NCBI GenBank assembly: GCA_018697205.1
Contig: JABHTG010000141.1
Coordinates: 1-64,000 of the forward strand
Source of the DNA: Nitrospina sp.
GTDB lineage: Bacteria > Nitrospinota > Nitrospinia > Nitrospinales > VA-1
Direction: 5' to 3'
Length of the DNA: 64,000 nt
Numbering within the stretch: position 1 is the first letter of the stretch; every line of letters begins with the position of its first letter. A model generated the notes under the pieces. It made no database searches, was not told the DNA's origin, and worked only from the letters and a program-made list of their open reading frames with translations. Both the position numbers and the translations under genes were made by a program. Of the stretch, positions 11,199-56,484 are shown piece after piece.

Positions 11199-11486
11199 AT
11201 GATTAAACATATTGTAATGTTCAAACTAAAAGATAAAAATAAAGAAAACATCGAAAAAGTCGTTAGTGCACTCAAAACTCTCGAAGCAAGTATCGATGTG
11301 TTGCGCTCTGCAGAAATTGGAGTAAATTTCACTGAGTCGGAGAGAAGCTACGACATAGTACTTACAACGGAATTTGATAACCTTGATGGTTTTAATGCGT
11401 ACGGACCTCACCCCGAACATGCTCCCGTTATAGAAATAGTCCGTTCACTGTGTTCCGGATCAGTTGTTGTTGACTATCGGGTATAA
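11199..11486 (+). CDS. Dabb (stress-responsive alpha/beta barrel) domain protein
   Basis: 95 residues. MIKHIVMFKLKD at the start and FNAYGPHPEHAPVIEIVR near residue 68 are characteristic of the Dabb family, dimeric ferredoxin-like barrels found in stress proteins and some cyclases. A good SD (AAAGGAAA) precedes the ATG. It stands alone between non-coding stretches of 206 and 332 bp. Its substrate is unknown. Confidence 0.85.
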   Translation: MIKHIVMFKLKDKNKENIEKVVSALKTLEASIDVLRSAEIGVNFTESERSYDIVLTTEFDNLDGFNAYGPHPEHAPVIEIVRSLCSGSVVVDYRV

Positions 11487-11818
11487 ATCCTGCTACCAAT
11501 AAACTGAGACAAAGGTTAATAAATTACCAGGGCAAAAAATTAACTTCAAACATTCATCCCAAACTCTCGATCAACAAAATAATCTCTTGAAATTCAATAT
11601 TTAAAGTGGTACCTTCTCCGCAATTTTAAAGTATTGCCAAAATAAAAAAATAAGTAGCAAAAAAATTAAGCGGGAAGTCATAAATGCTTAACTCTAACGT
11701 AAAATCATATTTTTTATCACATTTACATTAGACATTCTAACGTTAAAGGAATTTTAATACACAATACCCCGTGAAGACGACAAAAACACCAAGACACAAA
11801 TTATGAGGAGATATTAGA
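11487..11818. other. 332-bp non-coding stretch before the Lys-rich DksA gene
   Basis: AT-rich, with no convincing ORF. TCTAACGT appears twice (near 11692 and 11737) about 45 bp apart and could be an operator pair. A strong SD (GAGGAG) sits 8 bases before the ATG at 11819. An 11-codon GTG frame at 11771 ends in the SD region, but I see no SD for it and do not call it. Confidence 0.4.
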
Positions 11819-12616
11819 ATGCCTACAAAAAAAAAGTCCTCTAAAACAAAAGGACCCAACAAAAAAAAAGTCTCTAAAAAAATGCAGAAAAAGACTGCCA
11901 AAAAGAAAACCACATCCAAAGCCAAGGTTCAAAAAAGCACTAAAACAAAGATAAAGAAAAAAGCAAAAACAAAGACAAAAGCAAAGACAAAAACAAAGAC
12001 AAAAACAAAGACAAAGATAAAGACAAAGATAAAGAAAAAAACAAAAACAAAGACAAAAGTAAAGACAAAAACAAAGACCAAAACAAAGACAAAAACAAAG
12101 ACAAAAGCAAAGACAAAAGCAAAGACAAAAGCAAAGACAAAAGCAAAGACAAAAGCAAAGACAAAAGCAAAGACAAAAGCAAAGACAAAAGCAAAGCTTA
12201 AATCAAAAGTAAAAGCAAAAGCGAAGACTGAAAGCCCTCAACCCAAGATTGTCAAACCAAAAAAAATAAAACTGGATACTGCGACAATCAAAATCAGACA
12301 ACAATTGGTAATCAATCAACAGGAGTTACTCAATATTATTCAATCAAGTCACTCTGCAGAACGGAATACAGCCGAATCAAATTTCAGCAATGAAATCGAC
12401 ATGGCATCTAGTTTGGAAGGAAGAGAAATGATGTTCCAACTCACAAGCCGGGACAGAAACGAGTTAAAAATGATACAAGAAGCAATTTACAAAATCGATC
12501 ATGGAACCTACGGAATTTGCGAGAGTTGCTCAAAGGGGATAAGCTCAAAGCGATTAAAAATCTTACCTTTGTCCTCCCTATGCATTGAATGTAAAGAAGC
12601 TATGGAACAAATTTAA
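11819..12616 (+). CDS. DksA/TraR zinc-finger protein with long Lys/Ala/Thr repeat tail
   Basis: 265 residues. Residues 1-145 are almost entirely Lys, Thr and Ala, in KT then KAKT periodicity, like histone H1 or bacterial histone-like tails. Residues 155-265 are DksA/TraR-like: a coiled-coil segment with NEIDMA in place of the DxxDxA tip, then a zinc finger Cys234-X2-Cys237-X17-Cys255-X2-Cys258. DksA acts in the RNA polymerase secondary channel. The basic tail would also bind DNA or RNA, so it may be a nucleoid-associated regulator (inference). The first Asp of the tip is Asn, so it may not work like classical DksA. The SD GAGGAG is 8 bases upstream. Confidence 0.85.
   Translation: MPTKKKSSKTKGPNKKKVSKKMQKKTAKKKTTSKAKVQKSTKTKIKKKAKTKTKAKTKTKTKTKTKIKTKIKKKTKTKTKVKTKTKTKTKTKTKTKAKTKAKTKAKTKAKTKAKTKAKTKAKTKAKLKSKVKAKAKTESPQPKIVKPKKIKLDTATIKIRQQLVINQQELLNIIQSSHSAERNTAESNFSNEIDMASSLEGREMMFQLTSRDRNELKMIQEAIYKIDHGTYGICESCSKGISSKRLKILPLSSLCIECKEAMEQI
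12101..12196 (+). repeat. 12-bp minisatellite, eight perfect copies
   Basis: ACAAAAGCAAAG repeats eight times without a mismatch, encoding TKAK units. It is preceded from about 11940 by degenerate six-base ACAAAG-type variants. The tract stays in frame, so copy-number change would lengthen or shorten the basic tail by four residues. The coding strand has almost no T across roughly 190 bp, a strong strand asymmetry. Confidence 0.95.
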
Positions 12617-12632: not shown

Positions 12633-15188
12633 CTATTTACCGTGACATTTTTTAAATTTTTTTCCACTCCCACAATGGCAAGGATCATTTCGGCCTACTT
12701 TTTTATCATCTCGCCGAATCGTTGATGGTTTGATCTCTTCTGAATTGGTTCCTCGATGCTCTACTATCTTTTTTGACTGATTTTGTTCAGCAGAAAGCTC
12801 GGTACCTTCTTCAATTTGAACTTTGAATAGATACTCAGTAACACCTTCACGAATCTGATGCATCATTTTACTGAACATATCAAACCCTTCTTTCTTATAC
12901 TCTGTTAAAGGATTTTTCTGTGCATAACCGCGTAATCCAACTCCGTCCTTCAAATGATCCATTCCAAGCAAATGATCTTTCCACAAATTGTCAACAACTT
13001 GAAGCATGATCATTTTCTCTAGTTGCCGCATCATATCGGGATCAATTCCACGTTCCTTTGCTGCGTAGCAGTCTTGAATAGAATTCATAATGGCATTATG
13101 AAGTTGGTCTCGATCACAGGTTTCTAGTTCAATGCTTTTTGTGCTTGCAATCTCAAGGACCCCTTCTTTTTTTTCAACTAAAACGGAAAATTGTCGCATC
13201 ATATAATCATTTAGGCCTTGAATATCCCATTCCTCTGGGTATATTTTTTCGGGTGCGATATCATCTAAAACCGCACCTACCAATTCTTCGGCCATCTCCA
13301 TAAGCATTTCTCTATGATCTATATTTTTCAGGATCTCCCTTCGCAACCCATAAAATATCTCTCGCTGCTTATTCATTACATCATCATATTCAAGAAGGTG
13401 CTTTCGAATATCAAAGTTGTGGGCTTCAACTTTTTTCTGAGCATTAGCCACGGCTTTACTTACCATTGGATGTTCTATAGGTTGGCCGTTTTCCATACCA
13501 AGTTTTTCCATAATCCCTGAAATCTTTTCCGAACCAAAAATTCTCATTAAGTCGTCTTCGAGCGACAGGTAAAAACGTGACGATCCTGGATCACCCTGCC
13601 TTCCAGACCGTCCTCTCAACTGGTTATCAATCCGACGACTTTCGTGTCGTTCTGTACCTGTAATATGCAATCCCCCTAATTCAGCTACCCCTTCACCTAA
13701 AACTATATCCGTACCCCGACCAGCCATATTAGTTGCAATGGTAACCCCTTTTTTTTGCCCAGCTTGGGATATAATTTCGGCTTCCTTTTCGTGCTGTTTT
13801 GCATTTAGAACATTATGCTTAATACCATATTTTTTTAGTTGGTGGCTTAACTGCTCGGACTTTTCTATTGATATTGTACCTACAAGCACTGGTTGTCCTG
13901 ATTCGTTACAGTCACGTATTTCTTCAATAAGTGCATCAAACTTTTCTTTTTCTGTTCGGTAGATCAGATCAGAAGAGTCATAACGAACCATTTCTTTGTT
14001 AGTCGGTGCAACAATAACCTCAAGTTTATAAATCGAGTTAAACTCTTCTGCTTCGGTATCGGCTGTGCCTGTCATTCCAGAAAGCTTATCGTACATACGA
14101 AAATAATTTTGAAAAGTAATGCTAGCTAATGTCTGATTTTCATTTTCAATATTGACACCTTCTTTAGCCTCCAAAGCTTGATGAAGCCCATCACTATATC
14201 TCCGTCCCGGCATCATTCTACCGGTAAATTCATCGATAATTACTACCTCTCCGTTATCCACCACATAGTCAACTTCATTTTTAAATAAAGCATGTGCCTT
14301 AAGTGCTTGCTGAATACAGTGTAGAGTCTCTATATTCTGAGGATCATAAAGGTTTTCAATACTAAGAAGTTTTTCAACCGTCTCAATTCCTTTATCGTTT
14401 AATGCGGCAGTTTTAGATTTTTCTTCAACCTGATAATCTCTTTCTTTACGTAATTTAGGAATAACCTTACAGGCTTCGCTATATTTTAGTGTAGACTCCT
14501 CAGCCGGACCAGAAATAATCAGTGGTGTTCTTGCTTCATCGATAAGAATTGAATCAACTTCATCGACGATGGCAAAGTTTAATTCTCTCTGGACAAACTG
14601 TTCAAAAGAAAACTTCATGTTATCTCGAAGATAATCAAATCCAAATTCATTATTTGTTCCATAAGTAACATCGCAGCTATAGGCTTGTTTTCTTTCCTCC
14701 TCAGGCATATCGTGGTAGACACGCCCTACCGTAAGACCTAAGAACTGATAAATCTCTCCCATCCACTCGCTATCCCTTTTAGCCAGGTAGTCATTAACAG
14801 TAACAACATGAGAACCTTTACCACTTAGAGAGTTGAGATAAACTGGAAGAGTTGCAGCAAGCGTCTTTCCTTCTCCTGTTTTCATCTCAGCTATTTTTCC
14901 TTCGTGCAAAATTATTCCACCAATCAATTGAGCATCAAAGTGACGCATTTTAAGCGTTCGAATTCCAACTTCCCTTACTACTGCAAAAGCCTCTGGCAGG
15001 ATATCGTCAAGGGTGGCACCTTTTATTAGCTTCTCTCTAAACTCCTCAGTTTTGGCAAGAAGTTGATCGTTACTTAGATTATTAATAGAGTTTTCGAGAA
15101 GGTTTATCTGATCAACTATGATCTGTATTCTCTTAATCTCTCGACCATTTCTTGTGCCAAAAAATTTTTTTAATAAACCAAGTACCAT
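12633..15188 (-). CDS. secA: Protein translocase ATPase SecA
   Basis: An 851-residue motor that drives preproteins through SecYEG. Nucleotide-binding domain 1 has [15 protein letters not shown] near residue 100 and the DEAD-type [16 protein letters not shown] near 210. The preprotein cross-linking domain follows. Nucleotide-binding domain 2 has NMAGRGTDI near 490 and [13 protein letters not shown]. The C-terminus carries the zinc-binding SEC-C tail [19 protein letters not shown], which binds SecB or ribosomes. Length is normal for a compact SecA. An M23 peptidase gene lies just upstream on the same strand. Confidence 0.98.
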
Positions 15189-38089: not shown

Positions 38090-39778
38090 ATGGAAACTAT
38101 CATTGAAAAAATTATAGGCGTTATTGAAACTGTCTGGTTTGAGCTTGCTTCTATCCTGAACCTGGAAGAGGTGGGAGCCTTCGACTCTCTTCAACCTTTT
38201 TTAGCTAATATTTTGTCCGACCCCCTTCATCTCGGATTAACTTTGGCTATTTTAATGGGCATTCCATACACTATTCACAAAATTAAAAGCGCCTATAGAG
38301 ATAAGGAAAAACGACTGGATGCTTTGATGCAAGAACTGGCTGAAGAAGATATCGCGGATAGCAAACCCTCATTCCAAAATCAAAGCATGGGAAGCCCTAA
38401 GTTTAATCAATCTATAGACAAATTAGATGAAGAAGAATATGGTAATGAATTCGAATCACCAAGCTCAGAGAAAGCAATTATCACACCAGACAACATCAAC
38501 AAAACTCCGCAGGAAATATTTAAAAATCGAATGATTTCAGACAATGATTTCGGTTGGGAAAGTAGTCCCGATGAATGGGATGAACTTTATGATTATATTT
38601 CCAAACCATTCCAAATAGATAAGCCTAAACAAGAAAGTGAATCGACAACGGCTCCTAAACAAAAAGATGTGTCGACAACGGTTCCTAAAGAGTCAAGAAA
38701 ATCAGAGATCGCCCCAGAAAACCTTAGTCAAACACCGCAGGAAATATTTAAGAATCGAAGAATTTCTGACGACGATTTTGGCTGGGAAACTAGTGTAGAA
38801 GAGTGGAATGAACTTTATGATTACATTTCTAAACCATTCCAAGTAGATAAACCAAAGGATGATTCATCGGGTGAGAAAGTTTCTCCTGAGTCAAAAGAAG
38901 AGGTCTCTACTGAACCTTCACCAAAAGTGGCACTAACTGAAAATATTAATCAGGAAACAGAAGTGCCATCAAACATTGGCGTTGATGATCTTGTCGAGCA
39001 AATTATAGAAAAAGTTGTTTCAGACAATGAAGAAACTAATAAAGAACCATCAAATATTGGTATAGAAGAGCTTGCTACCCTGATTGAAGATGAATCATCA
39101 TTAGACATTAACAAGACAACCGAGACATTAGTCCATCAGGAAGAAACAACTGCTGGTATTGACGAAGAAATTGAACCAACAACTGAAGAATCTTCAAACA
39201 TTGGTATAGAGGAACTTGCTACCCTGATTGAAGGCGAAGAGCTAGACACCTCTCAGATTAAGTCTTCTCCAGCCGATAACTCAGAAGTTGAGACTAAAGC
39301 ATCCCCTCCTGTTCGTCAACGTGTTGAGCTCACTCTCGAAGAGGTAGAACCTGAGCTCGAATCACAGCCAGCGTTACAAACTCCAATAAAAGAGGTAGAG
39401 CCTGAACTCGAATCACAACCAGCGCTACAAACTTCAATAAAGGAGGTAGCGTCTGAAATAAAAACACCTTCTGCCGGCCCATTACTTAACAGCATGTTAA
39501 ATTCTTCAGTTTCAGCAAAAACTGATGCCTTGGTCAGCAAACTTAAAACGTTTCAAAGTGAACTAGAAACTCGCTTTCAGTCATTAGAAAAGGATACGGA
39601 AGTCCCAGCAGAAACTACCTCAACCACCGAAACTCTCCGAAAAAAACAAGGTGATTATCAACCCGCTAACCTAAGCTATCAAAGCAAACGAAAGTCGGGG
39701 TCTAACAAAGAATATTTACGTCAATTAGAATCATTTATTTTTATGGCAAGACAAAAAAACAAAAAAACCGACGTATAA
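38090..39778 (+). CDS. Acidic repeat protein with N-terminal membrane helix
   Basis: 562 residues; no recognised family. A transmembrane helix at about 46-62 (LHLGLTLAILMGIPYTI) precedes a short coiled segment. Two 50-residue repeats (131-180 and 197-246) share TPQEIFKNR, ISDxDFGWE, EWxELYDYISKPFQ and DKPK. Three SNIG-type motifs follow (274, 311, 349: SNIGIEELATLIE). Two 17-residue copies of EVEPELESQPALQ lie near 400-432. The C-terminus is basic (SKRKSGSNKEYLRQLE, ending ARQKNKKTDV). The linkers are Glu/Ser/Thr-rich and disordered. It is followed 46 bp later by a MinD-like ATPase, suggesting a positional or scaffold role (inference). Confidence 0.7.
   Translation: METIIEKIIGVIETVWFELASILNLEEVGAFDSLQPFLANILSDPLHLGLTLAILMGIPYTIHKIKSAYRDKEKRLDALMQELAEEDIADSKPSFQNQSMGSPKFNQSIDKLDEEEYGNEFESPSSEKAIITPDNINKTPQEIFKNRMISDNDFGWESSPDEWDELYDYISKPFQIDKPKQESESTTAPKQKDVSTTVPKESRKSEIAPENLSQTPQEIFKNRRISDDDFGWETSVEEWNELYDYISKPFQVDKPKDDSSGEKVSPESKEEVSTEPSPKVALTENINQETEVPSNIGVDDLVEQIIEKVVSDNEETNKEPSNIGIEELATLIEDESSLDINKTTETLVHQEETTAGIDEEIEPTTEESSNIGIEELATLIEGEELDTSQIKSSPADNSEVETKASPPVRQRVELTLEEVEPELESQPALQTPIKEVEPELESQPALQTSIKEVASEIKTPSAGPLLNSMLNSSVSAKTDALVSKLKTFQSELETRFQSLEKDTEVPAETTSTTETLRKKQGDYQPANLSYQSKRKSGSNKEYLRQLESFIFMARQKNKKTDV
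39341..39442 (+). repeat. 51-bp in-frame tandem repeat
   Basis: Two 51-bp units, 39341-39391 and 39392-39442, differ at only a few positions, and a third partial unit begins at 39443. They encode the EVEPELESQPALQ repeats of the acidic protein. Confidence 0.9.
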
Positions 39779-55818: not shown

Positions 55819-56484
55819 CTATGAGGCGGGAGTTTTACAGCTATTTGCCATTTTATTTACTAGTTCTATATCTGGGTTCATAACTCGCAAAGGACTCAAA
55901 CAGCCATTTGTATTCAAAAAAAGGTCCCCTTTTTTGTTTACCTGAAAAACTTTGTCTCCTTTTTTGTGTTGAACCTGTGCTGTAAATCTATGACTACGAC
56001 TCTCAATAATAGTCAGCTTTACATCTTTGAGATATTTTCCTATAGCCTTCTCACCTAAGTCTTGATCACATTTTTTATCAATTCCTACTTCACTCCATAA
56101 AGCAGTACAACTTACCTGCAGCTTGTTTAATGCTGCCAAGGATATCATGTATGTTTTAGCAATATCTTTAGCTTGACTTGAGAGTTGCATCTGATAAATA
56201 CCTCCAACCAATGCCAACAAAATCAGACCTCGAATAAGCCATTTTTTAGTGGCCGACTTTCCAGCAGCAGAATCTTTAGAGCTAGTCTTTTTTTTCTTTT
56301 TTTTCTTTTTTTTAGGAGGATCTTGAGTGTCATCTTCTAAACGAACTTTCTTTTTTTTCTTTTTTTTTGGAGGGTCTTGAGAGTCGTCTTCTAGACGAAC
56401 TTTCTTTTTTTTCTTTGTTTTAGGAGGATCTTGAGTGCCGTCTTCCAGTTTTAGATTATTTTTTTTTGGTTTTTCCCGAGCCAT
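55819..56484 (-). CDS. Lys-tract membrane protein with tandem repeats
   Basis: 221 residues; no family recognised. Residues 1-67 hold three about 19-residue repeats of the form LEDDxQDPPK followed by five to nine lysines. One transmembrane helix at about 82-98 (WLIRGLILLALVGGIYQM) separates this basic cytoplasmic tail from a periplasmic domain of about 120 residues with Cys126, Cys139, Cys195 and Cys216. That domain contains AQVQHKKGDKVFQVNKKGDLFL, then LSPLRVM. The layout recalls minor pilins or TadE-like proteins only loosely. A DNA- or ribosome-binding cytoplasmic tail is conceivable (inference). Confidence 0.7.
   Translation of the reverse strand: MAREKPKKNNLKLEDGTQDPPKTKKKKKVRLEDDSQDPPKKKKKKKVRLEDDTQDPPKKKKKKKKKTSSKDSAAGKSATKKWLIRGLILLALVGGIYQMQLSSQAKDIAKTYMISLAALNKLQVSCTALWSEVGIDKKCDQDLGEKAIGKYLKDVKLTIIESRSHRFTAQVQHKKGDKVFQVNKKGDLFLNTNGCLSPLRVMNPDIELVNKMANSCKTPAS

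Follow-up and report, generated by a model that had tools for sequence, protein, structure and literature searches.

A fusion of a histone-like domain to a DksA-type protein has been described in Streptomyces. In Streptomyces coelicolor, DdbA (SCO2075) carries a histone H1-like domain followed by a DksA part, associates with the nucleoid, and upon deletion alters chromosome compaction and spore stress resistance, according to the cited passages of its description (PMC11942623). Here, we analyzed a 64,000-nucleotide stretch (“the window”) of a Nitrospina sp. assembly (GCA_018697205.1, contig JABHTG010000141.1, positions 1 to 64,000), which contains a gene at 11819..12616 on the plus strand encoding 265 amino acids plus stop from an ATG start. 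Its product has the DdbA-type layout, with an N-terminal lysine-rich tail and a C-terminal DksA-like core in the same order. The architecture is therefore already known from Streptomyces, contrary to the newness implied by a preliminary description of this DNA made from the sequence alone, and the Nitrospina version is a variant with asparagine at tip position 71 (Escherichia coli numbering) and a fixed secA locus. A literature search on lysine-tailed DksA, or on DksA in Nitrospina, found nothing concerning the Nitrospina protein.

DdbA belongs to another phylum, whereas the Nitrospinota form has an N-x-x-D-x-A tip and a fixed secA neighborhood; in the lysine-tailed actinomycete proteins that we used as stand-ins for DdbA, a D-x-x-D-x-A tip is absent in the stretches examined. 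E. coli DksA shares with the window protein a common fold (Z score, 13.0), four cysteines, D74, A76, and R91, but it has no lysine tail, while the window protein lacks D71 and most residues of site 2 for guanosine tetraphosphate (ppGpp). Pseudomonas aeruginosa DksA2 (4ijj) has the closest solved fold, but it has aspartate at the position of residue 71, lacks two of the four cysteines, and shows no lysine tail in its solved chain (129-136 residues). Long lysine-rich repeat tails also occur on the DNA-linked proteins AlgP, HupB, and actinobacterial TopA, where they are C-terminal and attached to unrelated core domains, unlike the N-terminal tail of Nitrospinota. In the cited passages, HupB cannot associate with the nucleoid without its C-terminal domain (PMC5676037), and lysine repeats confer processivity on TopA (PMC7398561).

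We conclude that the Nitrospina fusion is real, conserved, and functional-looking. The reading that we lean toward, with modest confidence, is that the protein is a secondary-channel factor of the DksA superfamily whose N-terminal segment has been replaced by a long disordered polycation holding the factor near nucleic acid.

The lysine-rich tail and its variation across the order

The tail comprises residues 1-155 (11819..12283, plus strand), including 73 lysines, 34 threonines, and 15 alanines, with only two acidic residues (1 D, 1 E). It is about 10 residues longer than the roughly 145 first estimated, and the characterization of it as nearly pure Lys/Thr/Ala fits the middle 92 residues (85/92 within residues 43-134) but not the tail as a whole (122/155). 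A tandem-repeat scan found a minisatellite of period 12 with 20.3 copies at 11960..12196 (plus strand), whose score of 320 compares to a maximum of 179 among 200 codon-order shuffles of the tail. Within it, exactly eight perfect AAGACAAAAGCA copies stand in a row at 12098..12193 (plus strand), encoding KTKA (Lys-Thr-Lys-Ala) eight times, the number originally counted. In an AlphaFold2 model of the protein built from 30 aligned sequences, the tail is featureless, with block means of 45-52 for the predicted local distance difference test (pLDDT) across residues 1-140. A search of the protein's own genome with the tail returned the tail alone, plus a frame-shifted match to that very stretch of DNA.

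The tail is present throughout the order. In a 77-genome set of the phylum, which has one genome per species and supplies the kinship labels used here for order, family, and genus, the core was matched at our orthologue threshold of E <= 1e-17 in 58 genomes, 54 of the 64 within the order (presumably Nitrospinales) and 4 of the 13 outside it. One locus was examined for each of the 54 order genomes; all 54 encode a lysine-rich tail, and none has a frame break. Tail starts were assigned to an in-frame ATG, GTG, or TTG that precedes a lysine-rich stretch, a rule that may put lengths some residues off; on this basis, the 48 unbroken tails measure 106-209 amino acids (median, 129.5), with a lysine fraction of 0.29-0.47 and a net charge of +36 to +83; pooled, they are 40% lysine with hardly any aromatic residue. 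The other six are interrupted by a contig end (L006, L007, L014, L025, and L083) or a run of N (L090), a higher frequency than in flanks of equal length (6/54 versus 1/102; Fisher p 0.007), which suggests that the repeats disturb assembly and leave exact tail lengths uncertain. An early concern about assembly error in the repeats thus holds for exact lengths but not for the existence of the tail, since three single-contig genomes (G008, G009, and G037) carry tails of 117, 167, and 121 amino acids.

Tandem arrays with a score of at least 60 occur in 27 of the 48 unbroken tails, while 21 have none at that score. Their periods range from 12 to 144, with units differing by lineage, and every one of the 27 is a multiple of three, which on its own is weak evidence for in-frame change, since codon-structured composition favors such periods anyway. 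A direct example comes from two loci, L084 and L085, whose core proteins are identical (305 of 330 bases the same) while their tails differ (127 versus 119 amino acids) by in-frame gaps of 18 and 6 bases. These alignments support slippage as a process that changes tail length between species in frame, and the range of lengths argues against a constant tail; the variation among strains originally proposed, and a tuning through it, are conjectural.

In contrast to sequence and length, tail charge seems to be under selection. In 14 close pairs hand-picked from the orthologue listing, lysines are kept at 0.77-1.00 and other tail residues at 0.28-0.73, with lysine higher in all 14, although species recur among the pairs, certain silent sites are almost saturated, and the alignment tends to place lysine against lysine; pairs with at most 8 gaps show the same pattern. 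The ratio of nonsynonymous to synonymous substitution rates (dN/dS) is 0.09-0.42 for the tail (12 computable pairs) and 0-0.24 for the core (13 pairs). A drive by DNA composition was considered and rejected: the lysine fraction does not correlate significantly with flank GC content (0.35-0.58), the sign being negative (rho -0.21, p 0.12, n=54), and lysine codon choice does not follow GC content either. Neutral growth of low-complexity sequence without function, or an artefact of assembly, would account for repeat units that vary by lineage and for the six assemblies that break in the tail, but it is hardly credible given a tail in every orthologue, single-contig genomes included, intact frames at all loci, and the lysine retention and dN/dS values, on which counts neutral repeat expansion was set aside.

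A disordered polycation under lysine selection likely binds nucleic acid, as had been suspected. Polyphosphate is another conceivable ligand. The 154-residue KPAA-repeat tail of AlgP associates with polyphosphate granules and is needed for granule spacing, in the passages cited (PMC9239181), and a tail binding polyphosphate or granules in this way would link starvation storage to transcription. However, the window tail is built of KTKA rather than KPAA units, and searches limited to PPK1 and PPK2, leaving aside other polyphosphate-making enzymes, found PPK1 (TIGR03705) in 0/41 family genomes including the host, among which 20 reach 90% completeness or more. PPK2 (PF03976) passed its cut-off in 0/41, the single weak match, in G033, lying below it; control genomes matched in both searches. 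We therefore set polyphosphate or granule binding aside as very improbable.

Two other proteins in the window also contain repeats. At 55819-56484 on the minus strand, a 221-amino-acid protein begins with a minisatellite of 18-residue units VRLEDDTQDPPKKKKKKK (array 56293-56445, period 54, 2.8 copies), followed by an apparent single membrane helix. At 38090-39778 on the plus strand, a 562-amino-acid protein has a 51-base repeat (array 39339-39457, 2.3 copies) encoding 17-residue units EVEPELESQPALQTPIK.

The DksA-like core and its tip

The core, residues 156-265 (12284..12613, plus strand), consists of a coiled coil, a zinc finger, and a C-terminal helix. The Pfam zinc finger model PF01258 (zf-dskA_traR) matches at 33.9 bits (cut-off, 24.9), the best PDB sequence match is DksA2 (4ijj), and the NCBIfam DksA equivalog models match below cut-off (NF033459, 75.1/105; TIGR02420, 70.2/115.5; PRK10778, 42.4/289). 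In the model, two long helices, the finger region, and the last helix have pLDDT mostly of 85-94. The top fold match is again DksA2 (4ijj_A; Z 13.4, 1.8 Å across 113 residues, 30% identity), and other matches are E. coli DksA alone (1tjl_A, Z 13.0), its complex with RNA polymerase and ppGpp (5vsw_M, Z 12.8), and another RNA polymerase complex (7khi_M, Z 12.4). Foldseek E values for the DksA-type matches are 3.7e-6 to 2.8e-5, and the first unrelated helical fold, at Z 10.3, falls below all the DksA entries named. Thus, Pfam, the PDB sequence search, and the predicted fold support a DksA-like zinc-finger/coiled-coil portion, in line with the initial assignment.

The C4 zinc finger (Cys 234, 237, 255, and 258; 12518..12592, plus strand) and the residues corresponding to D74, A76, and R91 are invariant in all 54 orthologues. 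The coiled-coil tip motif, NEIDMA (12389..12406, plus strand), aligns without gaps to E. coli DksA (1tjl) and retains D74 and A76, with asparagine in place of D71, confirming that the first aspartate of the DksA tip is missing. FSNEID[LM]ASSLE occurs in all 54 order orthologues, so that position 71 is asparagine in 54/54, compared to aspartate in the 4/4 outgroup proteins, and the D-x-x-D-x-A tip of DksA is absent from the order form. In E. coli, R91 and D74 are required for RNA polymerase binding and regulation, and DksA with the double change D71N/D74N binds polymerase without regulating initiation (PMC10746185, PMC6488371); the passages of these sources on tip mutants include no test of D71N alone.

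The residues of ppGpp site 2 in DksA include L95, K98, R129, and K139, in the cited passages (PMC7676912). They are kept in few order orthologues (L95 in 0/54, K98 in 2/54, R129 in 1/54, and K139 in 7/54), with K98 replaced in 52/54, once by arginine, and the window protein has E, M, L, and K at the four positions; R91, a further residue of the site, is kept in 54/54. Given how few of the four residues it retains, the window protein probably acts independently of ppGpp binding at site 2.

The fold alignment with 1tjl starts at E. coli residue 33 and model residue 152, which places the tail where E. coli DksA has its N-terminal region. That region belongs to the domain that stays outside the channel, close to the rim helices, and takes part in a conformational switch, and E. 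coli DksA without its 18 N-terminal residues is more active, as far as the cited passages describe (PMC4370453). The tail could therefore be regulatory instead of a tether, with lysine modification such as acetylation, which is discussed for TopA lysine tails (cited passages of PMC7398561), or acidic partners gating the binding of the core to polymerase. But nothing within the window bears on modification, and one would expect conservation of a specific modification site, whereas a composition kept without sequence fits a charge effect. We consider such a regulatory tail improbable.

Genomic setting, distribution, and origin

Nitrospina-group bacteria are marine nitrite oxidizers. The host genome is a Nitrospinaceae metagenome-assembled genome of 2.48 Mb in 148 contigs (85% complete, 5.8% contaminated), and the nearest named relatives, in Nitrospinaceae/Nitrospina (L034-L037), have core identities of 82-86%. 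It encodes a full-length RelA/SpoT (753.8 bits), four HU/IHF-type gene matches, and two further DksA-family proteins, both under the NCBIfam DksA cut-offs. One of these, C68 (L001), is encoded on another contig and has the tip D-I-A-D-G-A, which fits D-x-x-D-x-A, while the other, C73 (L003), lacks such a tip. Of the two genes that the preliminary description proposed to look for, a ppGpp synthetase and a canonical DksA, the first is present in this genome and the second has a DksA relative with the D-x-x-D-x-A tip.

A ribosome-binding-site-like AGGAG lies 8 bases 5' of the ATG (11806..11810, plus strand). A promoter scan at the gene gave a count not above the shuffled mean, and the two terminator-like sites (0.9 +/- 0.9 expected) are both on the minus strand within the gene. 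Downstream and convergent lies a gene that we take, from its sequence, to be secA (open reading frame at 12633..15188, minus strand), and the same arrangement is found in 53 of the 54 loci; in the remaining one, L020, the contig stops 8 bases past the coding frame. The same assembly as L020 holds a second, truncated core copy (L082, G028:C30; an 83-amino-acid frame at a contig end), which may be a strain mixture or an assembly duplicate. Upstream is a gene for a Dabb stress-responsive A/B barrel protein (11199..11486, plus strand; Pfam), conserved in 47 of the 49 loci whose tail is not interrupted by a contig end and absent from L028 and L030.

No orthologue at the threshold was found in 10 of the 64 order genomes (G002, G003, G005, G015, G018, G035, G047, G050, G067, and G068), nine of which are 59-86% complete. 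The tenth, G015, belongs to the same family as the host, has 1.6 Mb, and is 91% complete; loss seems possible there.

Outside the order, two of the three loci of outgroup f8 (L080 and L092) also face secA, making them very likely true orthologues, and have no tail. The locus of outgroup f6 (L081) has a lysine-rich tail, lacks a secA neighbor in its 8 kb, and joins f8 in a phylogenetic tree (98/93) on a long branch. This pattern suggests that the tail was either gained once and then lost in f8 or gained twice within the class.

The actinomycete proteins were sampled from one order, with 30 loci from 30 of 38 genomes, of which 23 fitted the zinc-finger pattern and 7 were dropped. Lysine makes up at least 20% of the best 50 residues before the core in 13 of these 23 and at least 28% in 8. 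The tree of 48 rows included 19 chosen from the 54 order proteins and 11 from the 23 actinomycete proteins, with L055 left out as a misfit to the pattern and SCO2075 not included. The 19 Nitrospinota representatives cluster together (97/93), as do the 11 lysine-tailed actinomycete proteins (94/93); the Nitrospinota cluster joins f8 and f6 in a 23-row branch (94/93), and several rows of the tree are long-branched. The separate positions of the two clusters suggest that the Nitrospinota tailed form probably arose separately from the actinomycete form.

A polycationic tail on a putative secondary-channel factor

The tethered-factor reading builds on the anatomy of the gene, its order-wide conservation, lysine selection, the missing site-2 residues, and the fold; polymerase binding, DNA binding, and an effect on transcription are what we infer beyond these. 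The coiled coil would enter the RNA polymerase secondary channel, placing D74 and A76 near the active site, while the tail would leave the globular end outside the channel and contact nearby nucleic acid through charge rather than sequence, with DNA the likeliest partner, either in the nucleoid or close to the polymerase as it transcribes. Such binding would concentrate the factor at sites of transcription and prolong its stay on the complex. Tail length would drift by in-frame repeat slippage, as we propose, because only net charge and flexibility matter.

DksA acts on elongation as well as initiation. The tail might accordingly bind chiefly RNA, as nascent transcript or in ribosomes, and tie the factor to elongating complexes or to translation without any particular role on DNA; the lysine-rich, almost aromatic-free composition of the pooled tails would suit RNA and DNA equally. 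But the lysine-tail precedents HupB, TopA, AlgP, and DdbA are described, in the passages cited above, as DNA-related, and we regard a chiefly RNA-directed tail as unlikely.

Several observations weigh against our preferred reading of a factor held near nucleic acid. Model confidence is low around the tip (pLDDT only 65-68 at residues 181-200) and overall (predicted template modeling score, 0.44). Asp71 is absent from the tip in all order orthologues, and since the D71N/D74N protein binds polymerase yet fails to regulate initiation, the regulatory output of an Asn71 tip may differ. L95, K98, and R129 are likewise absent in the four outgroup proteins (tail-less f8, or f6), so the absence of site-2 residues does not track the tail. 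RNA, ribosomes, and other acidic partners would be bound by a polycation as well. Finally, the gene may be dispensable, since the orthologue is missing from 10/64 order genomes, including one that is 91% complete.

A bolder form of the tethered-factor reading, which we offer as tentative and rather doubtful, is a chromatin-tethered DksA independent of ppGpp site 2, in which constant electrostatic recruitment by polylysine replaced alarmone-gated recruitment, tail length was left free to slip, and the tip was retuned by Asn71.

If the preferred reading is true, a histone-like tail became attached to a DksA-type factor on two or more occasions, once among actinomycetes and once in the Nitrospina order, and this repeated fusion would suggest that tethering a secondary-channel factor close to nucleic acid is of general use. 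The Nitrospina order supplies naturally occurring tails that diverge in length and sequence but retain their charge, making a “charge, not sequence” rule testable, and its Asn71 tip offers a natural comparison for the tip mutants of E. coli DksA.
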